Assembly (NCBI GenBank): GCA_902580215.1
Contig: CACHJT010000002.1
Location: forward strand, 1 to 64,000
Reading direction: 5' to 3'
Source of the DNA: an uncultured Candidatus Actinomarina sp.
GTDB lineage: Bacteria; Actinomycetota; Acidimicrobiia; Actinomarinales; Actinomarinaceae
DNA: 64,000 nucleotides
Shown: piece after piece, positions 11,158 through 22,794 of the stretch
How positions within the stretch are numbered: the first letter of the stretch is position 1
Layout of the letters: every line of letters starts with the position of its first letter
The notes under the pieces: generated by a model
Told to the model about the DNA's origin: nothing
Database searches by the model: none
The model's input: only the letters and a program-made list of their open reading frames with translations
Translations under genes and position numbers: made by a program

Positions 11158-12189
11158 ATGGAAATAGGTATAGATTCATTTGCAAAAAAAACTCAAACTA
11201 ATGAAGGTGGTACTGTTCAGGACGATGCTCGTGCTATGTCTGAGCTAATTGAGAGAATAGTCCATGCAGACAAAGTAGGTTTAGATGTTTTTGGTCTCGG
11301 AGAACACCACAGAGAAGAGTTTTTAGACTCGGCTGCACATAATATTCTTGCAGCTGCAGCAGCAAAGACAGAAAACATTAGGCTAACCAGTGCAGTTGCT
11401 GTAATAAGCGCAATGGATCCAGTAAGGTTGTTTCAAAACTATGCAACATTAGATTTAATTTCAAATGGAAGAGCAGAGATTGTCGCGGGAAGAGGCTCAT
11501 TCACAGAAGCGTTTCCTCTTTTTGGTTTAGATTTTAATGATTATGACGACCTCTATGCCGAAAAGCTTGACCTTCTGTTAAGAATTAGGGATGAAAACAA
11601 AGTTACTTGGTCTGGAAAATTTAGACCTCCTCTAGAAAATCAGACTGTGTATCCAAGACCATTGCAAGAAAAACTGCCCGTATGGGTTGGAGTTGGTGGA
11701 ACACCAGCATCTTTTGTAAGAGCAGGAACTCTTGGTCTTCCTTTAATGGTTGCTGTTATAGGTGGAGAAACTCATAGATTTAGACCACTAATTGATCTAT
11801 ATTATGAAGCTGCAGAAAAAGCAGGCCATGATAAAACCTCTCTAAAAGTTGGTCTTCATTCACTCGGATTTGTAGCAAACTCAAAAGAGGAAGCTATTGA
11901 AAGGTATTATCCAGGATATAGAATTTGGTTCAATCAAATTGGAAAAGAGCGTGGCTGGCCACCAGTTACTATGGAGAGGTTCGAGCAACAAATCGGCGAC
12001 TTGGGTGCATATGTTATTGGTGGACCAGAGGAAGTAGCAGAAAAATTAGTTAGACATAGTGAAGCTTTAGGAGGCTTATCTCGTTTTACTTTTCAGATAG
12101 ATAACGCAGGTCTCACACATGAAGATTTAATGGAAACTTATACATTAATTGGAGAAAAAGTAAAACCTTTAGTTTTAGACAGACTCTAA
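11158..12189 (+). CDS. LLM-class flavin-dependent oxidoreductase
   Basis: Luciferase-like: FGLGEHHREEF, LISNGRAEIVAGRGSFTEAF, PVWVGVGGTPAS. Confidence 0.88.
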   Translation: MEIGIDSFAKKTQTNEGGTVQDDARAMSELIERIVHADKVGLDVFGLGEHHREEFLDSAAHNILAAAAAKTENIRLTSAVAVISAMDPVRLFQNYATLDLISNGRAEIVAGRGSFTEAFPLFGLDFNDYDDLYAEKLDLLLRIRDENKVTWSGKFRPPLENQTVYPRPLQEKLPVWVGVGGTPASFVRAGTLGLPLMVAVIGGETHRFRPLIDLYYEAAEKAGHDKTSLKVGLHSLGFVANSKEEAIERYYPGYRIWFNQIGKERGWPPVTMERFEQQIGDLGAYVIGGPEEVAEKLVRHSEALGGLSRFTFQIDNAGLTHEDLMETYTLIGEKVKPLVLDRL

Positions 12190-12801
12190 ATAATCAGGTA
12201 GATCAATATCAGCAGAATGATTTTTATCAACTTCTGGTGTTACAAATTTAGTTTCTACAGGTACTACTCCTGACCAAATTGGAAGGGTTTTATCTGACTC
12301 TTCTTCTTTAGGCATACCAGTGCGCTGTTTTAGTGAAAATTCATCAATTGTAAATTCAAGCATTGCAGTTTGCAGCCATTCATTTTTTGTAGGCTTTCTT
12401 GCATCTTCAAACCTTCCTTTAAAAAATCTATCAACCATATTTTCAAAAGCAGCATACATAACTGTTTCATCACTAATTCTTTTAGTATTACCAAACACAA
12501 CTGCTGACTGATAATTCATAGAAGAATGGAAAAGACTTTTAGATAAAACTATTCCATGAACATCTGTTGCAGACAACGTTACATTTGAATTATTTGACAA
12601 TTCTTTAGTAATTCTTGAGCCAACAGCAGCATGAAGATAAATTTTTTCATTATAAATTGCATGTAGCATTGGAATAGAAAACACAGTTCCTTTCTGGTTA
12701 AACGACACAGTTACAAAATATGTTTTGTTCAAGAATGAAAAAAGTTCATTTAGGTCATATGAAGCACGTTCTTTTAATCTTCTTACTTTAGATTTATCCA
12801 C
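12175..12801 (-). CDS. Pyridoxamine 5'-phosphate oxidase family protein (NimA-like)
   Basis: PMLHAIYNEKIYLHAAVGSR...; C-terminal LEFTIDEFSLKQRTGMP and WSGVVPV. Confidence 0.75.
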   Translation of the reverse strand: MDKSKVRRLKERASYDLNELFSFLNKTYFVTVSFNQKGTVFSIPMLHAIYNEKIYLHAAVGSRITKELSNNSNVTLSATDVHGIVLSKSLFHSSMNYQSAVVFGNTKRISDETVMYAAFENMVDRFFKGRFEDARKPTKNEWLQTAMLEFTIDEFSLKQRTGMPKEEESDKTLPIWSGVVPVETKFVTPEVDKNHSADIDLPDYLESV

Positions 12802-12954: not shown

Positions 12955-13518
12955 ATGAAAAAATTTTTCACACAGCCAATTGGTGATTTAGCTCGACAAA
13001 ATGCGCTAACTTTTTTAGTAATTAATTTGGTTGGTATCGGAGTCGAGTTATCAGGGTCAACAGCTTTAGATGCAGTTGATAATTTGTTTAGCTTTATATG
13101 GGGATTTTCACTAATCTCTATTATTATTGCTGGCTATTATCTTGCAGAAGGCTATGTTCCAGAATATTGGAAAATGGCAACAACTATATTAGCTACAGTT
13201 ATTATTTTTGGTACTTTTCTTGAAATTACTGAACTTGAAGATGGTTTTTTACCAATTTACTTTTTTTGGGCATTTAACTCATTAATTTATGGATTAACTT
13301 TAAGAGGAAGTGGTATCTTTCGCCCAATTTATGAATACCTAACCATCTTTGGTGCGTTAATCATAACTATTGGAACTTCAGCAGATTTATTTTTTGACTA
13401 TGAGCTTCCAGAAGCAGTACAGATAGTAGGGCTTTTTGGATGGTTGTCTTTGGTAGTTGGAACAAGTGTAGGTAACTACTTTGCTTGGGGTGATAAAGCT
13501 GCCTCAAGCGCAGAATAA
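12955..13518 (+). CDS. Uncharacterised multi-pass membrane protein A1
   Basis: About 6 hydrophobic segments; shares FFDYELPEA motif and layout with the next gene. Confidence 0.75.
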   Translation: MKKFFTQPIGDLARQNALTFLVINLVGIGVELSGSTALDAVDNLFSFIWGFSLISIIIAGYYLAEGYVPEYWKMATTILATVIIFGTFLEITELEDGFLPIYFFWAFNSLIYGLTLRGSGIFRPIYEYLTIFGALIITIGTSADLFFDYELPEAVQIVGLFGWLSLVVGTSVGNYFAWGDKAASSAE

Positions 13519-13535
13519 AAGAAAGGAAATAAATT

Positions 13536-14075
13536 ATGAAATCATTTTTTGCATCAACAGATAAAGAAAATGCACAACAGGCAGGTTACTTATTTCTAAT
13601 AGTTAATATTTTAGGATTTGTAACTACAGGATTAATGGGAATGGAAGCTCCTCCTGGAGAAAAATTAGTAAATTTCTTCTGGGGTTTAAGCCTAGCTGGT
13701 GTTTTTCTAACCATTAAACCATTGCTTGGTGACAATGTACCAGAAAATTGGAGAGAGGGAACAACCTTTCTTGCTGCAGCGATCTTTACCGCTAACACTT
13801 TACTATTAGGAAGTGATGGAAATGAATTTGCTCCATTTTTCTTCTTTATATGTTTAAATATGATTGCTTTATATGCGGTATCAGAAGGTGTAATTGGTAA
13901 TATTTATCGATACAGCCTCTTAGTGGGTGGAGCCATTGGAATGGTAATCTCAGGTGCTGGCGCATTTTTTGACTACGAGTTACCAGAAGCATTAATGCCG
14001 ATTGGATTAGTCATTTGGCTTGCATTCATTTTAGGCCTAGGTGTTGGACCATTGCTAGCATGGCGAGATAGATAA
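13536..14075 (+). CDS. Uncharacterised multi-pass membrane protein A2 (paralogue of A1)
   Basis: FFDYELPEALMPIGLVIWLAF aligns with A1 FFDYELPEAVQIVGLFGWLSL. Confidence 0.75.
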   Translation: MKSFFASTDKENAQQAGYLFLIVNILGFVTTGLMGMEAPPGEKLVNFFWGLSLAGVFLTIKPLLGDNVPENWREGTTFLAAAIFTANTLLLGSDGNEFAPFFFFICLNMIALYAVSEGVIGNIYRYSLLVGGAIGMVISGAGAFFDYELPEALMPIGLVIWLAFILGLGVGPLLAWRDR

Positions 14076-14716
14076 TGTATGTAAGACTAGGATTAGCTAA
14101 CCCTAAAGAAGGGATGACAGAAGACGCCTTAAATTACTTTAGGGATGTAGCAATACCTGTATACGATCAAGTAAGTGGACTTCTTGGTGCTGCAGCTTGC
14201 ATTAATAATGCTGGCCAGCTTATGGCATGGACTACTTGGGCGAACAATGAAGCAAAAGAAGCTGCAATGTCAGAGTTTCAACAAAACCTTTCAGGATTAG
14301 CCGATTTCATTACAGAGCCTCCAACAATACTTGAAGGGCCAATGGTTGCAGGACAACAATACATTATGGTTCCAAAAGATGGTGAAGAACCATTTTTTGC
14401 AAGATTTGTATTAGGCGGTGGAACTCAAGAAGGTAAAACTTATGATGATGTTGCAGAGTTTATGACAAACACTGTTTATCCCGCATATGAAAATGTTGAT
14501 GGCATATTTGCTACTGCCGCATGCAAAGTTGACGACAACAGTGGTTTTAGTTTCAATTTTTGGATTAGTCATGATGCTGCACATGCAGCATCTGATGTAA
14601 TTGCAGATGTTGTACAAGATGCAGTTACAAATCTAATTAAAGAAGCACCTCAAGAATTAACAGGAGAATGCAACGTTTGGAAAAACTATGTTGATTTTCC
14701 TGTAGGAAAAATATAG
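14075..14716 (+). CDS. Internally duplicated ABM-like (dimeric alpha/beta barrel-type) protein B1
   Basis: Two similar halves: ALNYFRDVAIPVYDQVSGLLGAAACI... and VAEFMTNTVYPAYENVDGIFATAACK... Confidence 0.65.
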   Translation: MYVRLGLANPKEGMTEDALNYFRDVAIPVYDQVSGLLGAAACINNAGQLMAWTTWANNEAKEAAMSEFQQNLSGLADFITEPPTILEGPMVAGQQYIMVPKDGEEPFFARFVLGGGTQEGKTYDDVAEFMTNTVYPAYENVDGIFATAACKVDDNSGFSFNFWISHDAAHAASDVIADVVQDAVTNLIKEAPQELTGECNVWKNYVDFPVGKI

Positions 14717-14726
14717 AAAGGAAATT

Positions 14727-15344
14727 ATGTTAACTAGTAAAGAAGCTCAACTTGGTAGTTTAATGGCAAGAATTGCTGCATTGGGAACCATTGTTGTATT
14801 TGCAGTTCAAGCATTGCTTATTGGACCAGATCAGGTTGGCTATAGTACTCAGTACGGAGCTATTGTAGATATAGTTTCATTTGTTCAAACTTTTGGAATT
14901 TTGTTTACAATTTCGTTAACTCAAAAATTATTTGGAGACAACAATCCATACTTTAGGATTGTCAGTGCAATACTATTTGTTGCTGCAGTAATTCAACTAA
15001 CAGGATCACTGTCATCAACAGGTAATGCAAACAGTGTCTTTGACTCTGTTTTATCGCCAGACCAAGCAAATGCTGTTGCAAATAATGGACAGCTTGTCAC
15101 ATTCCTCTTATATGGAATATGGGCCTTATGTTTAATAAGTGCTGATGTAAATAATCGTGTTCCATCGTGGGGAAGAATGTCAGGACAAGGCGCTGCTTAC
15201 CTTGTGATAGCTGTTCAAATTGGAGCATTGTTTGGTTTGATACCACTAGCTGCTTTTGTTCCAGTATTCATACTTGGAGGAGTAGTTCTTTTCCCTGTTT
15301 TTGTATATGGAATAAGCATTGCATTTAGTGGAGCAGGTGAGTAG
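14727..15344 (+). CDS. Uncharacterised multi-pass membrane protein C
   Basis: About 6 hydrophobic segments, 205 aa, same operon. Confidence 0.7.
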   Translation: MLTSKEAQLGSLMARIAALGTIVVFAVQALLIGPDQVGYSTQYGAIVDIVSFVQTFGILFTISLTQKLFGDNNPYFRIVSAILFVAAVIQLTGSLSSTGNANSVFDSVLSPDQANAVANNGQLVTFLLYGIWALCLISADVNNRVPSWGRMSGQGAAYLVIAVQIGALFGLIPLAAFVPVFILGGVVLFPVFVYGISIAFSGAGE

Positions 15345-15347
15345 ATC

Positions 15348-15983
15348 GTGTATTTTAGAATAACAATACCTTCTCTACAAGACGGAAAAAAAGATGAAGC
15401 AATTTCTTTTGTTAAAGAAAATGTAATGCCAGAGTTTGATGGCACACCTGGACTTCTAACAATGATGGCAGCTATTACAGGTGAGACTTCTGGTATTAAT
15501 ATGGCTGCTTATGAAAGTAAAGAAGCTGTAGAAGCAGTAGAAGAAAAAATACAAGGAGTATTGTCAGAAGCAGCTGGCATGATGGCAGCACCTCCTGTAG
15601 TTTACCAAGGTGATGCAGTTTACGGCAAGGTCTACCAGACCATGGCCAAAGAAAGCACAAGACCAAGCTATTTAAGGCTGGTTGTTGGTGTTGCGAAAGA
15701 CACAGATGCAGTCTTAAGCTTTCTCAAAGAAAAAGTGGAACCAATCTATGAAGAGTCAGAAGGCCTTCAAGTAACAGGAGCTATTTTTGATGGAAGCAGC
15801 GCAATTAGCTGGAACTTTTGGGATTCTGAAGAGGACATGAATTCAGCTGTTGAAAAACTACAAGCAGTGTTGGACAGCGAATCAGAGACCGAACTGTTTG
15901 ATGGAAGCACTATAGCGTATATGGGACCTGTTTATGCAGGCAAGTTGTTTATAGATTTTAATGAAGGAGACACTCCAACATAA
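15348..15983 (+). CDS. Internally duplicated ABM-like protein B2 (paralogue of B1)
   Basis: AISFVKENVMPEFDGTPGLLTMMAAI / VLSFLKEKVEPIYEESEGLQVTGAIF; GTG start likely. Confidence 0.65.
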   Translation: MYFRITIPSLQDGKKDEAISFVKENVMPEFDGTPGLLTMMAAITGETSGINMAAYESKEAVEAVEEKIQGVLSEAAGMMAAPPVVYQGDAVYGKVYQTMAKESTRPSYLRLVVGVAKDTDAVLSFLKEKVEPIYEESEGLQVTGAIFDGSSAISWNFWDSEEDMNSAVEKLQAVLDSESETELFDGSTIAYMGPVYAGKLFIDFNEGDTPT

Positions 15984-16008
15984 ATCTTTGTGAATAGATA
16001 ACGCATAG

Positions 16009-16044
16009 AAAAAAAGGGATTTTTAAAAAAAATCCCTTTTTTTT
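16009..16044 (+). terminator. Intrinsic terminator after the five-gene cluster
   Basis: AAAAAAAGGGATTTTT...AAAATCCCTTTTTTTT inverted repeat with T-run. Confidence 0.75.
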
Positions 16045-16070: not shown

Positions 16071-16196
16071 ATGTTTAGAAAAATAACTCCAACAAGAGTG
16101 ATTTTAATTTTACTGCTTTTGTACATACTTTTTTCAGAAGATGATACGGCAAGAAGATTTAAACAACTTCCTGAACTATTGTTAAATTATTTTTAA
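16071..16196 (+). CDS. Possible 41-aa single-pass membrane micro-protein
   Basis: MFRKITPTRVILILLLLYILFSEDDTARRFKQLPELLLNYF; no obvious Shine-Dalgarno. Confidence 0.35.
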   Translation: MFRKITPTRVILILLLLYILFSEDDTARRFKQLPELLLNYF

Positions 16197-16205
16197 AATG
16201 AATTT

Positions 16206-16583
16206 ATGAATCTTAAAGATTTCACTGGTGTTGAATATATAAATCTTATAACTTATAAAAGAGATAAAACACCTATCACAACTCCAGTATGGGTTGCAGA
16301 TTTTTCTAATTCACTAGTTATAACAACAAGTCAAAATGCAGGAAAAGTGAAGAGGGTTAGAAACAATGGCCAAGCAACAATTTACATTACTAACCAAAGT
16401 GGTTCTAAAAAGCTATCAGAAAGCATAGACTTAAAAGCATCACTCATAGAGGATGTAGATCTAAAAAAGCAGGCTGCAGATTTAATTAGAAAAAAATATG
16501 GAATGATGGCAAAAATGATTATGAAAGGACCCGATGAAAATAGGGCAATTATCAGATTAGAAGAAAAGGGAGGTGAAAAATGA
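16206..16583 (+). CDS. PPOX-class (probably F420-dependent) oxidoreductase
   Basis: YINLITYKRDKTPITTPVWVADFSNSLVITTSQNAGKVKRVRNN. Confidence 0.8.
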   Translation: MNLKDFTGVEYINLITYKRDKTPITTPVWVADFSNSLVITTSQNAGKVKRVRNNGQATIYITNQSGSKKLSESIDLKASLIEDVDLKKQAADLIRKKYGMMAKMIMKGPDENRAIIRLEEKGGEK

Positions 16584-16618
16584 TGTGTCCTGAATGCGGA
16601 TGTGAAGACGAAAGTTAA
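16580..16618 (+). CDS. 12-aa Cys-rich micro-peptide MMCPECGCEDES
   Basis: GGGAGGTGA Shine-Dalgarno a few nt before ATGATG; ATGA overlap with the PPOX gene; CxxCGC motif. Confidence 0.55.
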   Translation: MMCPECGCEDES

Positions 16619-18483
16619 GTTAAATTATCTTTGTGCCATTTTATGACGTGATCAAATCTTTGTTTTCTGTGATTTGGCGTTCCAGATCTAGAAAGTTCAT
16701 GACTTTCACCTGGAAATCTTAGCATTGCTGTTTTCACACCTCTTCTTTTAAGGTTAGAAAATAACTGCTCCGCTTGCTCTATTGGACACCTGTAGTCTTC
16801 TTGTGAGTGAAGAATGAGGGTAGGAGTTTTAATATTTGATGCATAAGTGATAGGACTTTTTTTTCTGTATAAATTTATATTTTTATCCATATCATCGAGC
16901 AAATACATCTCAGGAAAACCTATTCCTATATCTGATGTTCCAACCATTGTTTCCCAATTGAGAAGCGCTCTTTCAACAATTGCAGATTTAAACATACTCG
17001 GATGATGACTAATAATCCAAGACGTCATGAAACCACCATATGAGCCGCCCATAATTCCGTCATTTTTATTTGTAATACCCATTATTTTTTTCATACTTTT
17101 AAATGAAGTAATAACATCGTGCATATCAGTTACACCCCATTTATTTCCACAAACGTCTCTTAAGAAATCGTGACCCCTTCCACTTGACCCTCTTGGGTTA
17201 CAAGCAATAACATTAAAACCAGCCGAAGCATAAGTTTGAAACTCATCAAAAAAGGTAAATGCATACTGGCTTGCAGGTCCACCGTGTATATTTAAGATTG
17301 TTGGCTTATCTTTACCTACAAAAATTCCCCAAGTATCTATCTCAGATTTTCCAGTATCAATTCTTTGATGTTGACAATCCCAAGTTTTAACTTTTTTAGT
17401 AAAAAATTCATTAGCTTTAGAAATTTTTGTAAGTTGACCATTATTCAACTCGTATATTTCATCAGGATTTGAAAATGAATTTGCTATTACGAACGTTTGT
17501 TCATTGTTAAAAGCAAAATCTTTAATGGTAACTTTTGAATTTATTAGATCTACATTGTTTGTTCCATCTCGTAGTAAAGTTTTTCCAGAATCTTCGTACA
17601 AGAAATAGAGGATAGCTTCATTCACTTCTGCTTTAACTATATTTCTATCAAATAAACGATACTTATAAGATACTTTTCCAGTGTTTGAAATTTTTAAAAC
17701 AGTAGTATTTGTAGGCCAGTCAAATCTTTTTCTCATGCCTACTGCATGAAGTCCATCTTCGTAATAGAAAAGATTTCCCATACTGCCTTGCGAATAAATT
17801 TCTTTAATTTTTGAACCCTCTATTGCTCCAATTTTCTCTTCTAGCATGGTTCCTTTAGAGTTGTACTGGTCAAAAGAAAGCACTAAACCTTTCTCTCCCT
17901 CCACCATTGATTCAATAGAAATAATATCTTTCGCATCACCATCAACAATTTTGGTAAATTTCTTAGTTTGAATGTTTACTTTATAGACGTGAGATCTTTT
18001 ATTGTAAATTATGCCTCTTGTATCAAATCGAAAAGGAAGGTTTTCATAGTACATAGGCTCGGAATTTTTATCTTCAATATTTTTAAACTCCTTACTCCAC
18101 TCACTTGTAATCACATACATTGACTTTCCATCTTTACTTAGTGAATAATTACTTATACCTCCTTCAACTTCAAAGATAGTATCTATAGACCGGCCTACTT
18201 GCATATGGATTGTTGATAAGGCTTTTTTTGATCTACTTTTATCTTGAACAGACCTATTTGTTTTTATATAAAAAACGGTATTTTCTTTATCCCCAAATTT
18301 TGGATTACTAAAGTTATTGTTACCTGTCTTAAAACTTTTCCACTGTCCATTACTTCTTTTCCATAGTTCACTTATATAGGTGTTTGTTTCAAAGTCCATT
18401 CGAGTGCTTTGTACCACTAAAGTGGTACCTTTCCCAACTAGGTTAGACAAGGTATTGAAAGAGTTTAAATCAGTAGGCTTCAT
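16615..18483 (-). CDS. S9 family prolyl oligopeptidase-like peptidase
   Basis: Beta-propeller N-terminus; HGGPASQY, GGSYGGFMTSW catalytic Ser, HSQEDYRCP, GESHELSRSG. Confidence 0.93.
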   Translation of the reverse strand: MKPTDLNSFNTLSNLVGKGTTLVVQSTRMDFETNTYISELWKRSNGQWKSFKTGNNNFSNPKFGDKENTVFYIKTNRSVQDKSRSKKALSTIHMQVGRSIDTIFEVEGGISNYSLSKDGKSMYVITSEWSKEFKNIEDKNSEPMYYENLPFRFDTRGIIYNKRSHVYKVNIQTKKFTKIVDGDAKDIISIESMVEGEKGLVLSFDQYNSKGTMLEEKIGAIEGSKIKEIYSQGSMGNLFYYEDGLHAVGMRKRFDWPTNTTVLKISNTGKVSYKYRLFDRNIVKAEVNEAILYFLYEDSGKTLLRDGTNNVDLINSKVTIKDFAFNNEQTFVIANSFSNPDEIYELNNGQLTKISKANEFFTKKVKTWDCQHQRIDTGKSEIDTWGIFVGKDKPTILNIHGGPASQYAFTFFDEFQTYASAGFNVIACNPRGSSGRGHDFLRDVCGNKWGVTDMHDVITSFKSMKKIMGITNKNDGIMGGSYGGFMTSWIISHHPSMFKSAIVERALLNWETMVGTSDIGIGFPEMYLLDDMDKNINLYRKKSPITYASNIKTPTLILHSQEDYRCPIEQAEQLFSNLKRRGVKTAMLRFPGESHELSRSGTPNHRKQRFDHVIKWHKDNLT

Positions 18484-21858: not shown

Positions 21859-22794
21859 TTAGGAATTTTTCCCACTCTTTCTTCTGGAAATAATCAAATT
21901 AAACATGATTGCCAAAACAGTGACACCAAGTAAAGCACTAAGAACAGTTGATATAAAATCATTATTTATAGCACTAATTCCATAGTCATCAAGAAGCAAA
22001 ACTATTCCATCTGTTTGTGTAAAGCCAAACTCTTCCGCGACGGATTCTAAGCCATCTGGAGATGACGATGCAAAAGGTGTGACAAGGCTTAAAAGTAAAA
22101 TAAGAATAATAAATAGACCATAGAAAGATACTTTGGTTGTGTTTTCATCACTTCTCTCATATGCATAAATTAAATCAGGTCTTACTCGAATTAAAAGAGT
22201 GATAATAAGAGCTGTAATTACTCCCTCACCGAAACCAATGATGAAATGTGTTGTGACCATGGCCAACAAAACTGTTCCTACCGGTATTGATATTGTTCCA
22301 CCAATTGCATATTGGATTGTAAAAGCTATTGATGAAAACACAACACTCAAAATTCCTGCAAGTACACTAACAGAGACAATAGAGGTTTTATTTTTTCCAA
22401 TGAACTTTATCCAGTACTTAACAATAAACCAACTAGTTGCACTAGTTACAATTGCCATATTTAAAACATTCACTCCTAAAGCACTGAGACCCCCATCAGC
22501 AAAAAGTAGAGATTGAATAATAACTACTACTGATAGACAAATTAATCCCAATCTTGGTCCTAAAACTATAACTGCGAGCGCACCACCAAGTAAATGGCCA
22601 CTTGTACCAGCGGCTATAGGGAAGTTTATCATTTGAAGAACAAATATTAATGCAGACATCATTCCTGTTAAGGCAATAAATTTATCTGCAATTAAATCTT
22701 TTGCTGATCTAATGTATGCCCACAATGTGCCAAAACTGATTACTCCAGTAGCGGCAGACATAGTTACATTCATAAATCCGTCAGGTACGTGCAT
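21859..22794 (-). CDS. CbiM/NikM-type cobalt/nickel ECF substrate component with fused C-terminal PDGLE (NikN/CbiN-like) domain
   Basis: N-terminal MHVPDGFMN; GTSGHLLGGALA; SSPDGLESVAEEFGF. Confidence 0.9.
   Translation of the reverse strand: MHVPDGFMNVTMSAATGVISFGTLWAYIRSAKDLIADKFIALTGMMSALIFVLQMINFPIAAGTSGHLLGGALAVIVLGPRLGLICLSVVVIIQSLLFADGGLSALGVNVLNMAIVTSATSWFIVKYWIKFIGKNKTSIVSVSVLAGILSVVFSSIAFTIQYAIGGTISIPVGTVLLAMVTTHFIIGFGEGVITALIITLLIRVRPDLIYAYERSDENTTKVSFYGLFIILILLLSLVTPFASSSPDGLESVAEEFGFTQTDGIVLLLDDYGISAINNDFISTVLSALLGVTVLAIMFNLIISRRKSGKNS

Follow-up and report, generated by a model that had tools for sequence, protein, structure and literature searches.

The question raised by this locus is whether an ORF of 12 codons at the 3' end of a PPOX gene, found in a 64,000-nt stretch of Candidatus Actinomarina DNA (the whole stretch analysed, hereafter the window, from a genome of 1 Mb), is a gene, and what its product may do. 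The ORF is 39 nt long, ends after 12 codons and reads ATG ATG TGT CCT GAA TGC GGA TGT GAA GAC GAA AGT TAA (16580-16618); its ATG overlaps the stop codon TGA of the PPOX gene (16581-16583) as ATGA. The features of the region are collected in Table 1. In the initial annotation the letters quoted from the Shine-Dalgarno (SD) sequence to the ORF were right, except that the three-base spacer AAA, which separates the SD from the peptide ATG, was missing.

Table 1. Position of the features described at the PPOX locus and of the adjoining gene
Feature	Position	Strand	Basis or remark
Terminator-like hairpin and T tract	16008..16044	+	read from sequence
41-aa single-TM microprotein MFRKITPTRVILILLLLYILFSEDDTARRFKQLPELLLNYF, first cistron	16071..16196	+	upstream of PPOX at all 33 loci
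PPOX/FDOR-like split beta-barrel protein, 125 aa, second cistron	16206..16583	+	Pfam, NCBIfam, AlphaFold, Foldseek
SD GGGAGGTGA, within PPOX C-terminal codons	16568..16576	+	anti-SD pairing, -14.9 kcal/mol
12-aa tri-cysteine peptide ORF MMCPECGCEDES, third cistron	16580..16618	+	sequence, genus conservation
Cys codons of the peptide	16586-16588, 16595-16597, 16601-16603	+	
S9 peptidase gene, convergent, stop codon overlapping that of the peptide	16615..18483	-	outside the unit, differs in other genomes

The pairing of this SD with the anti-SD (-14.9 kcal/mol) is the strongest in the window, the best of the 59 window genes reaching -10.2 kcal/mol, and the near-ideal SD at an overlapping start that had been pointed out from the sequence is upheld by this comparison. 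By the same measure, the PPOX gene itself has almost no SD. At the 25 loci of the genus which carry the peptide ORF, pairing energies range between -15.2 and -4.9 kcal/mol, and an AGGA/GGAG core is kept at all 25, despite the differing C-terminal residues of PPOX. The start codon is ATG in 22 cases and GTG in 3, and is placed at -4, -1 or +2, counted from where the PPOX stop ends.

These data bear on the possibility that the codons serve as a C-terminal extension of PPOX, produced by -1 frameshifting. The peptide ORF does lie in the -1 frame at 24 of 24 loci with an intact PPOX, and SD-like sequences are able to stimulate frameshifting; yet both the start codon and the SD are kept, in many cases a TGA of the -1 frame immediately precedes the start (GGTGA), no slippery heptamer is common to the loci, and at several of them 2 nt lie between the PPOX stop and the peptide start. 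The extension, rejected on the placement of the stops and on the conserved start and SD, is therefore extremely unlikely.

Conservation was analyzed in a sample of 42 Candidatus Actinomarina genomes. PPOX homologs are present in 34 of them, one being marginal, and the 33 clear loci are the basis of the counts. The peptide ORF directly follows PPOX at 25 of the 33, where both the reading frame and the three cysteines are kept; it thus withstands the refuting check that the initial annotation had proposed. Length is fixed at 12 residues in all 25 peptides, whose consensus is M/V-[MFIYA]-C-P-[ED]-C-G-C-[EGS]-D-[ED]-x-stop; residues C3, P4, C6, G7, C8 and D10 are invariant, while residues 2, 9 and 12 vary. 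At one locus (L033, genome G025) the PPOX frame is broken and the peptide ORF MYCPDCGCSDDE is intact, reflecting either an assembly error or a real change.

Among the 25 peptide ORFs 20 distinct DNA sequences are found, in which the third position is variable in every codon from 2 to 12, and the first or second in few codons. Variable sites are distributed as 3, 3 and 11 over the three codon positions, with a hypergeometric chance of about 6e-5. Over codons 2-12 the pN/pS ratio amounts to 0.23, and over the core (codons 3-11) to 0.11; PPOX of these genomes has 0.32. Purifying selection acts almost certainly on the 12-residue peptide, and from these comparisons we infer that the ORF is translated. 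Among the features by which translated small proteins are generally recognized, codon-level purifying selection, an SD, and conserved start and stop codons are present, and the proposal of a free-standing short coding ORF is borne out by its conservation, its codon-level selection and its exceptional SD. Comparative evidence alone thus shows selection on a bacterial gene which has its own translation start and no more than 12 codons.

That the ORF is an untranslated coincidence, as its length of only 39 nt might suggest, is hardly credible in view of its conservation, its codon pattern, its recurrence across the genus and the absence of strict matches outside the genus in 257 Gb of sequence; a chance ORF was rejected on the strict scan, the codon pattern and pN/pS, the last of which practically excludes it. 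An RNA element was rejected as well, on the lack of covariation and the presence of 4 weak invariant pairs, and Rfam gave no match near a gathering cut-off at the peptide locus.

According to another reading, the ORF would be regulatory: its three Cys codons would sense the cysteine supply and control the mRNA, the peptide itself being inert. Cys-rich short ORFs reportedly act as attenuators in mycobacteria, in work by Canestrari (2020) which PMC7790235 cites, and the ORF described here is likewise a Cys-rich short ORF of an actinobacterium. The mycobacterial polycysteine ORFs are, however, leaderless 5' attenuators, upstream of the genes that they control, whereas at the loci examined the peptide ORF is an SD-led 3' cistron, the last one, followed by a convergent gene and selected at the peptide level. 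Moreover, P4, G7 and D10 are conserved as strongly as the cysteines, TGT and TGC replace each other freely as Cys codons, and there is no covarying structure. A regulatory role is accordingly quite improbable.

The coding pattern was searched at two levels of stringency. The strict pattern, a motif with a fixed distance to the stop, so that relatives of other tail length would escape it, was found at 24 loci in 84,980 species genomes (257 Gb), all of them in Candidatus Actinomarina/OCS155 or Actinomarinales-type records. Within the genus sample a strict coding pattern gave 24 matches, all 24 behind PPOX. A looser, start-anchored pattern, applied to 395 genomes of the class, matched 25 genus genomes and 13 others, the reversed control giving about 15; none of the 11 non-genus loci inspected shows a short SD-led ORF of this kind, and these matches look like chance. 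The peptide ORF was also absent behind each of 10 distant PPOX homologs inspected in the class, the closest non-genus homologs in the sample being not above about 38% identity. Other CPECGC ORFs, lacking the D-E-x-stop tail, are contained in phage contigs. Many viral contigs (L161, L174, L176, L196, L206 and others) show a recurrent ORF stretch, VLCPECGCVHPSAAVCGV, probably located inside a longer gene and unrelated in context to the peptide locus.

Within the genus, the presence and absence of the peptide on the PPOX tree require two changes. In a clade nested among peptide-bearing genomes (G022, G026, G033), ORF and SD are both lost, cleanly deleted, and the PPOX stop abuts the next gene. 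In a second clade (G012, G002, G011, G003, G016) the absence may reflect either a loss or a gene never gained. The 8 genomes of the two clades keep the membrane microprotein and PPOX alone; PPOX can therefore persist without the peptide, which would modify the enzyme rather than enable it. On the other side of the ORF, four unrelated convergent genes were found in different genomes. The peptide's association is therefore with PPOX, and a link to the downstream gene, which has four alternatives, was rejected. The stop codons of the convergent genes lie no more than 4 nt from that of the peptide, as expected of a true gene in a genus with a median intergenic spacer of 2 bp (PMC7771536).

The same distribution has to be weighed when considering whether the peptide, though encoded in the PPOX operon, acts apart from PPOX as a free metal or thiol buffer, i.e. 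a minimal metallothionein or thiol reserve. Three cysteines and acidic residues within 12 aa, a strong SD implying much product, and the clades with PPOX and no peptide would all agree with such a function; on the other hand, the 24 genus matches are all located at PPOX and never apart from it, though the downstream genes change. We consider a free buffer rather unlikely.

The upstream 41-residue membrane microprotein, the operon and the restriction to the genus were missing from the initial annotation and are added here. The microprotein is encoded just upstream of PPOX at 33 of 33 loci, and a profile search of the 395 class genomes recovered it in the same 33 PPOX genomes and in 0 of the 362 others. 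It has no Pfam match, and features one hydrophobic stretch and a conserved tail, ARRxxQLP[ES]LLLN[YN]F, in which QLP and LLLN are invariant. The hairpin listed in Table 1 probably separates the unit from the preceding gene (15348-15983), and the three ORFs likely form an operon of a membrane microprotein, a split-barrel FMN/F420-type enzyme and a tri-cysteine peptide.

PPOX scores 28.0 bits against Pfam PNPOx_N (cut-off 28.1) and 75.1 bits against NCBIfam TIGR03666, the Rv2061-type F420 PPOX family, under the cut-off of 84.9. Its AlphaFold model (pLDDT 91.4) is a split beta-barrel, and the nearest solved relatives of the model in Foldseek include HutZ, Rv1155-F420, Rv2074-F420 and Ddn, with E values down to 5e-7. 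The predicted structure thus places the protein within the PPOX/FDOR superfamily, with a fold like that of FDOR-B/PPOX proteins (the Rv2061-like TIGR03666, Rv2074 and Rv1155); it differs from TIGR03666 in scoring below the cut-off, and the cofactor would accordingly be one among FMN, F420 and heme. F420 is available, CofH being over its cut-off in 37 of the 42 genus genomes, and its synthesis in the genus has been described (PMC7771536). No conserved cysteine is present in PPOX of the genus.

An enzyme of this superfamily next to a short peptide recalls RiPP biosynthesis, in which the peptide would be a precursor modified by PPOX/FDOR or by an enzyme encoded elsewhere. FDOR-B enzymes, of which TpnL is an example, act as tailoring enzymes on ribosomal peptides (PMC8498797), and RiPP precursor genes adjoin those of their enzymes. 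A chain of 12 aa, however, leaves no room for a leader, and neighbours differ between genomes: only PPOX and the TM microprotein are constant, with no other enzyme gene and no evident dedicated modification cluster. A RiPP precursor appears very improbable.

A role connected to PPOX itself is the reading that we prefer, and we give an even chance to the peptide, encoded by the third cistron of the operon, being translated and serving the membrane-tethered PPOX as a metal- or thiol-binding accessory. The roles in metal binding or as a redox partner suggested in the initial annotation are thus plausible. Ribosomes ending PPOX would re-initiate at the overlapping peptide start, aided by the very strong SD; such coupling would yield the peptide at least in step with PPOX, possibly in excess. 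The reactive groups that never change in the peptide comprise three thiols and one acidic side chain, and through C-P-[ED]-C-G-C it may bind Zn, Fe or Ni, or cycle as a thiol. Since PPOX lacks a conserved cysteine, the peptide could supply the thiolate or metal site of the unit, which the microprotein may tether to the membrane. This scheme presumes a common transcript, a membrane tether, chemistry at a metal or a thiol, and contact with PPOX; a 12-mer could, on the other hand, be quickly degraded.

One form that the accessory might take is a PPOX dimer with two peptides, whose two CxxCG knuckles would build a split rubredoxin-like centre. The CPxCG knuckle is common to the peptide and to rubredoxin and zinc-ribbon proteins; the peptide differs from rubredoxin in having one knuckle per 12-mer chain, not two. 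METP, a designed 11-residue peptide, forms a 2:1 dimer round the metal with a rubredoxin-like site (PMC10130062), and so demonstrates that an assembly of this type is chemically feasible. Compared with METP and with the rubredoxin knuckle, the peptide is natural and genome-encoded, with an extra third Cys and a putative metal site. The iron form of METP shows no reversible cycling (PMC10130062), and this would speak for a partner protein. A true split metalloprotein, with the peptide as a detachable metal-site subunit docking on the membrane-tethered flavin/F420 split-barrel enzyme, and with a rubredoxin-like or Ni/Fe thiolate centre made from two peptides, is a tentative and rather unlikely extension; if true, few known metalloprotein subunits in nature would be as small as this peptide, which belongs to a lineage abundant in the ocean. 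As a purchasable 12-mer it is a cheap object to test, and MFCPECGCEDEN is the sequence named for its synthetic form.

The resemblance of CxxCGC to the nickel-binding N-terminus of HypB, also part of the initial annotation, did not hold as kinship. The C-x-x-C-G-C spacing near a protein N-terminus is shared, and the CXXCGC terminus of HypB binds Ni at subpicomolar Kd, employing Cys2 and the N-terminal amine (PMC7055735). The peptide, by contrast, is a free-standing 12-mer without GTPase domain, and carries Cys at 3, 6 and 8 in 25 of 25 cases, not the HypB pattern of Cys2, Cys5 and Cys7 with the N-terminal amine; hypB (TIGR00073) was found in 0 of the 42 genus genomes.

A peptide acting like the HypB N-terminus could nevertheless handle nickel and feed Ni-SOD, which is found in 34 of the 42 genus genomes. 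Besides the CxxCGC motif, this would agree with a CbiM-type Ni/Co uptake protein 5 kb away, and with the lack of detectable Ni-SOD in the peptide-loss clade G022, G026, G033 (loci L023, L022, L028), although the joint loss is a single event and may be a coincidence. Against it, G012, G002, G011 and G016 have Ni-SOD without the peptide, as do most PPOX-less genomes of the genus; HypB is absent from the genus, and the first Cys, at residue 3, stands behind a bulky residue in most peptides (residue 2 being M, F, I, Y or A). Nickel handling is therefore improbable.

The comparisons confirm, at the level of sequence, a lineage-restricted and evidently selected 12-codon gene within an undescribed three-part unit of Candidatus Actinomarina, made of a membrane microprotein, an FMN/F420-type enzyme and a Cys peptide, in a streamlined ocean lineage which keeps almost no spare DNA.

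Some further genes of the window were noted. Upstream of the unit, 12955-15983 (+) holds small families repeated in an array and reshuffled from genome to genome; its members include putative membrane proteins of 179-187 aa and 205 aa, and proteins of 211-213 aa weakly like ABM monooxygenases, below cut-off. A second PPOX-like protein, with weak NimABCDEF and TIGR03666 matches, is encoded at 12175-12801 (-). The CbiM-type cobalt/nickel uptake protein, at 21859-22794 (-), is fused to a PDGLE/CbiN-like domain.
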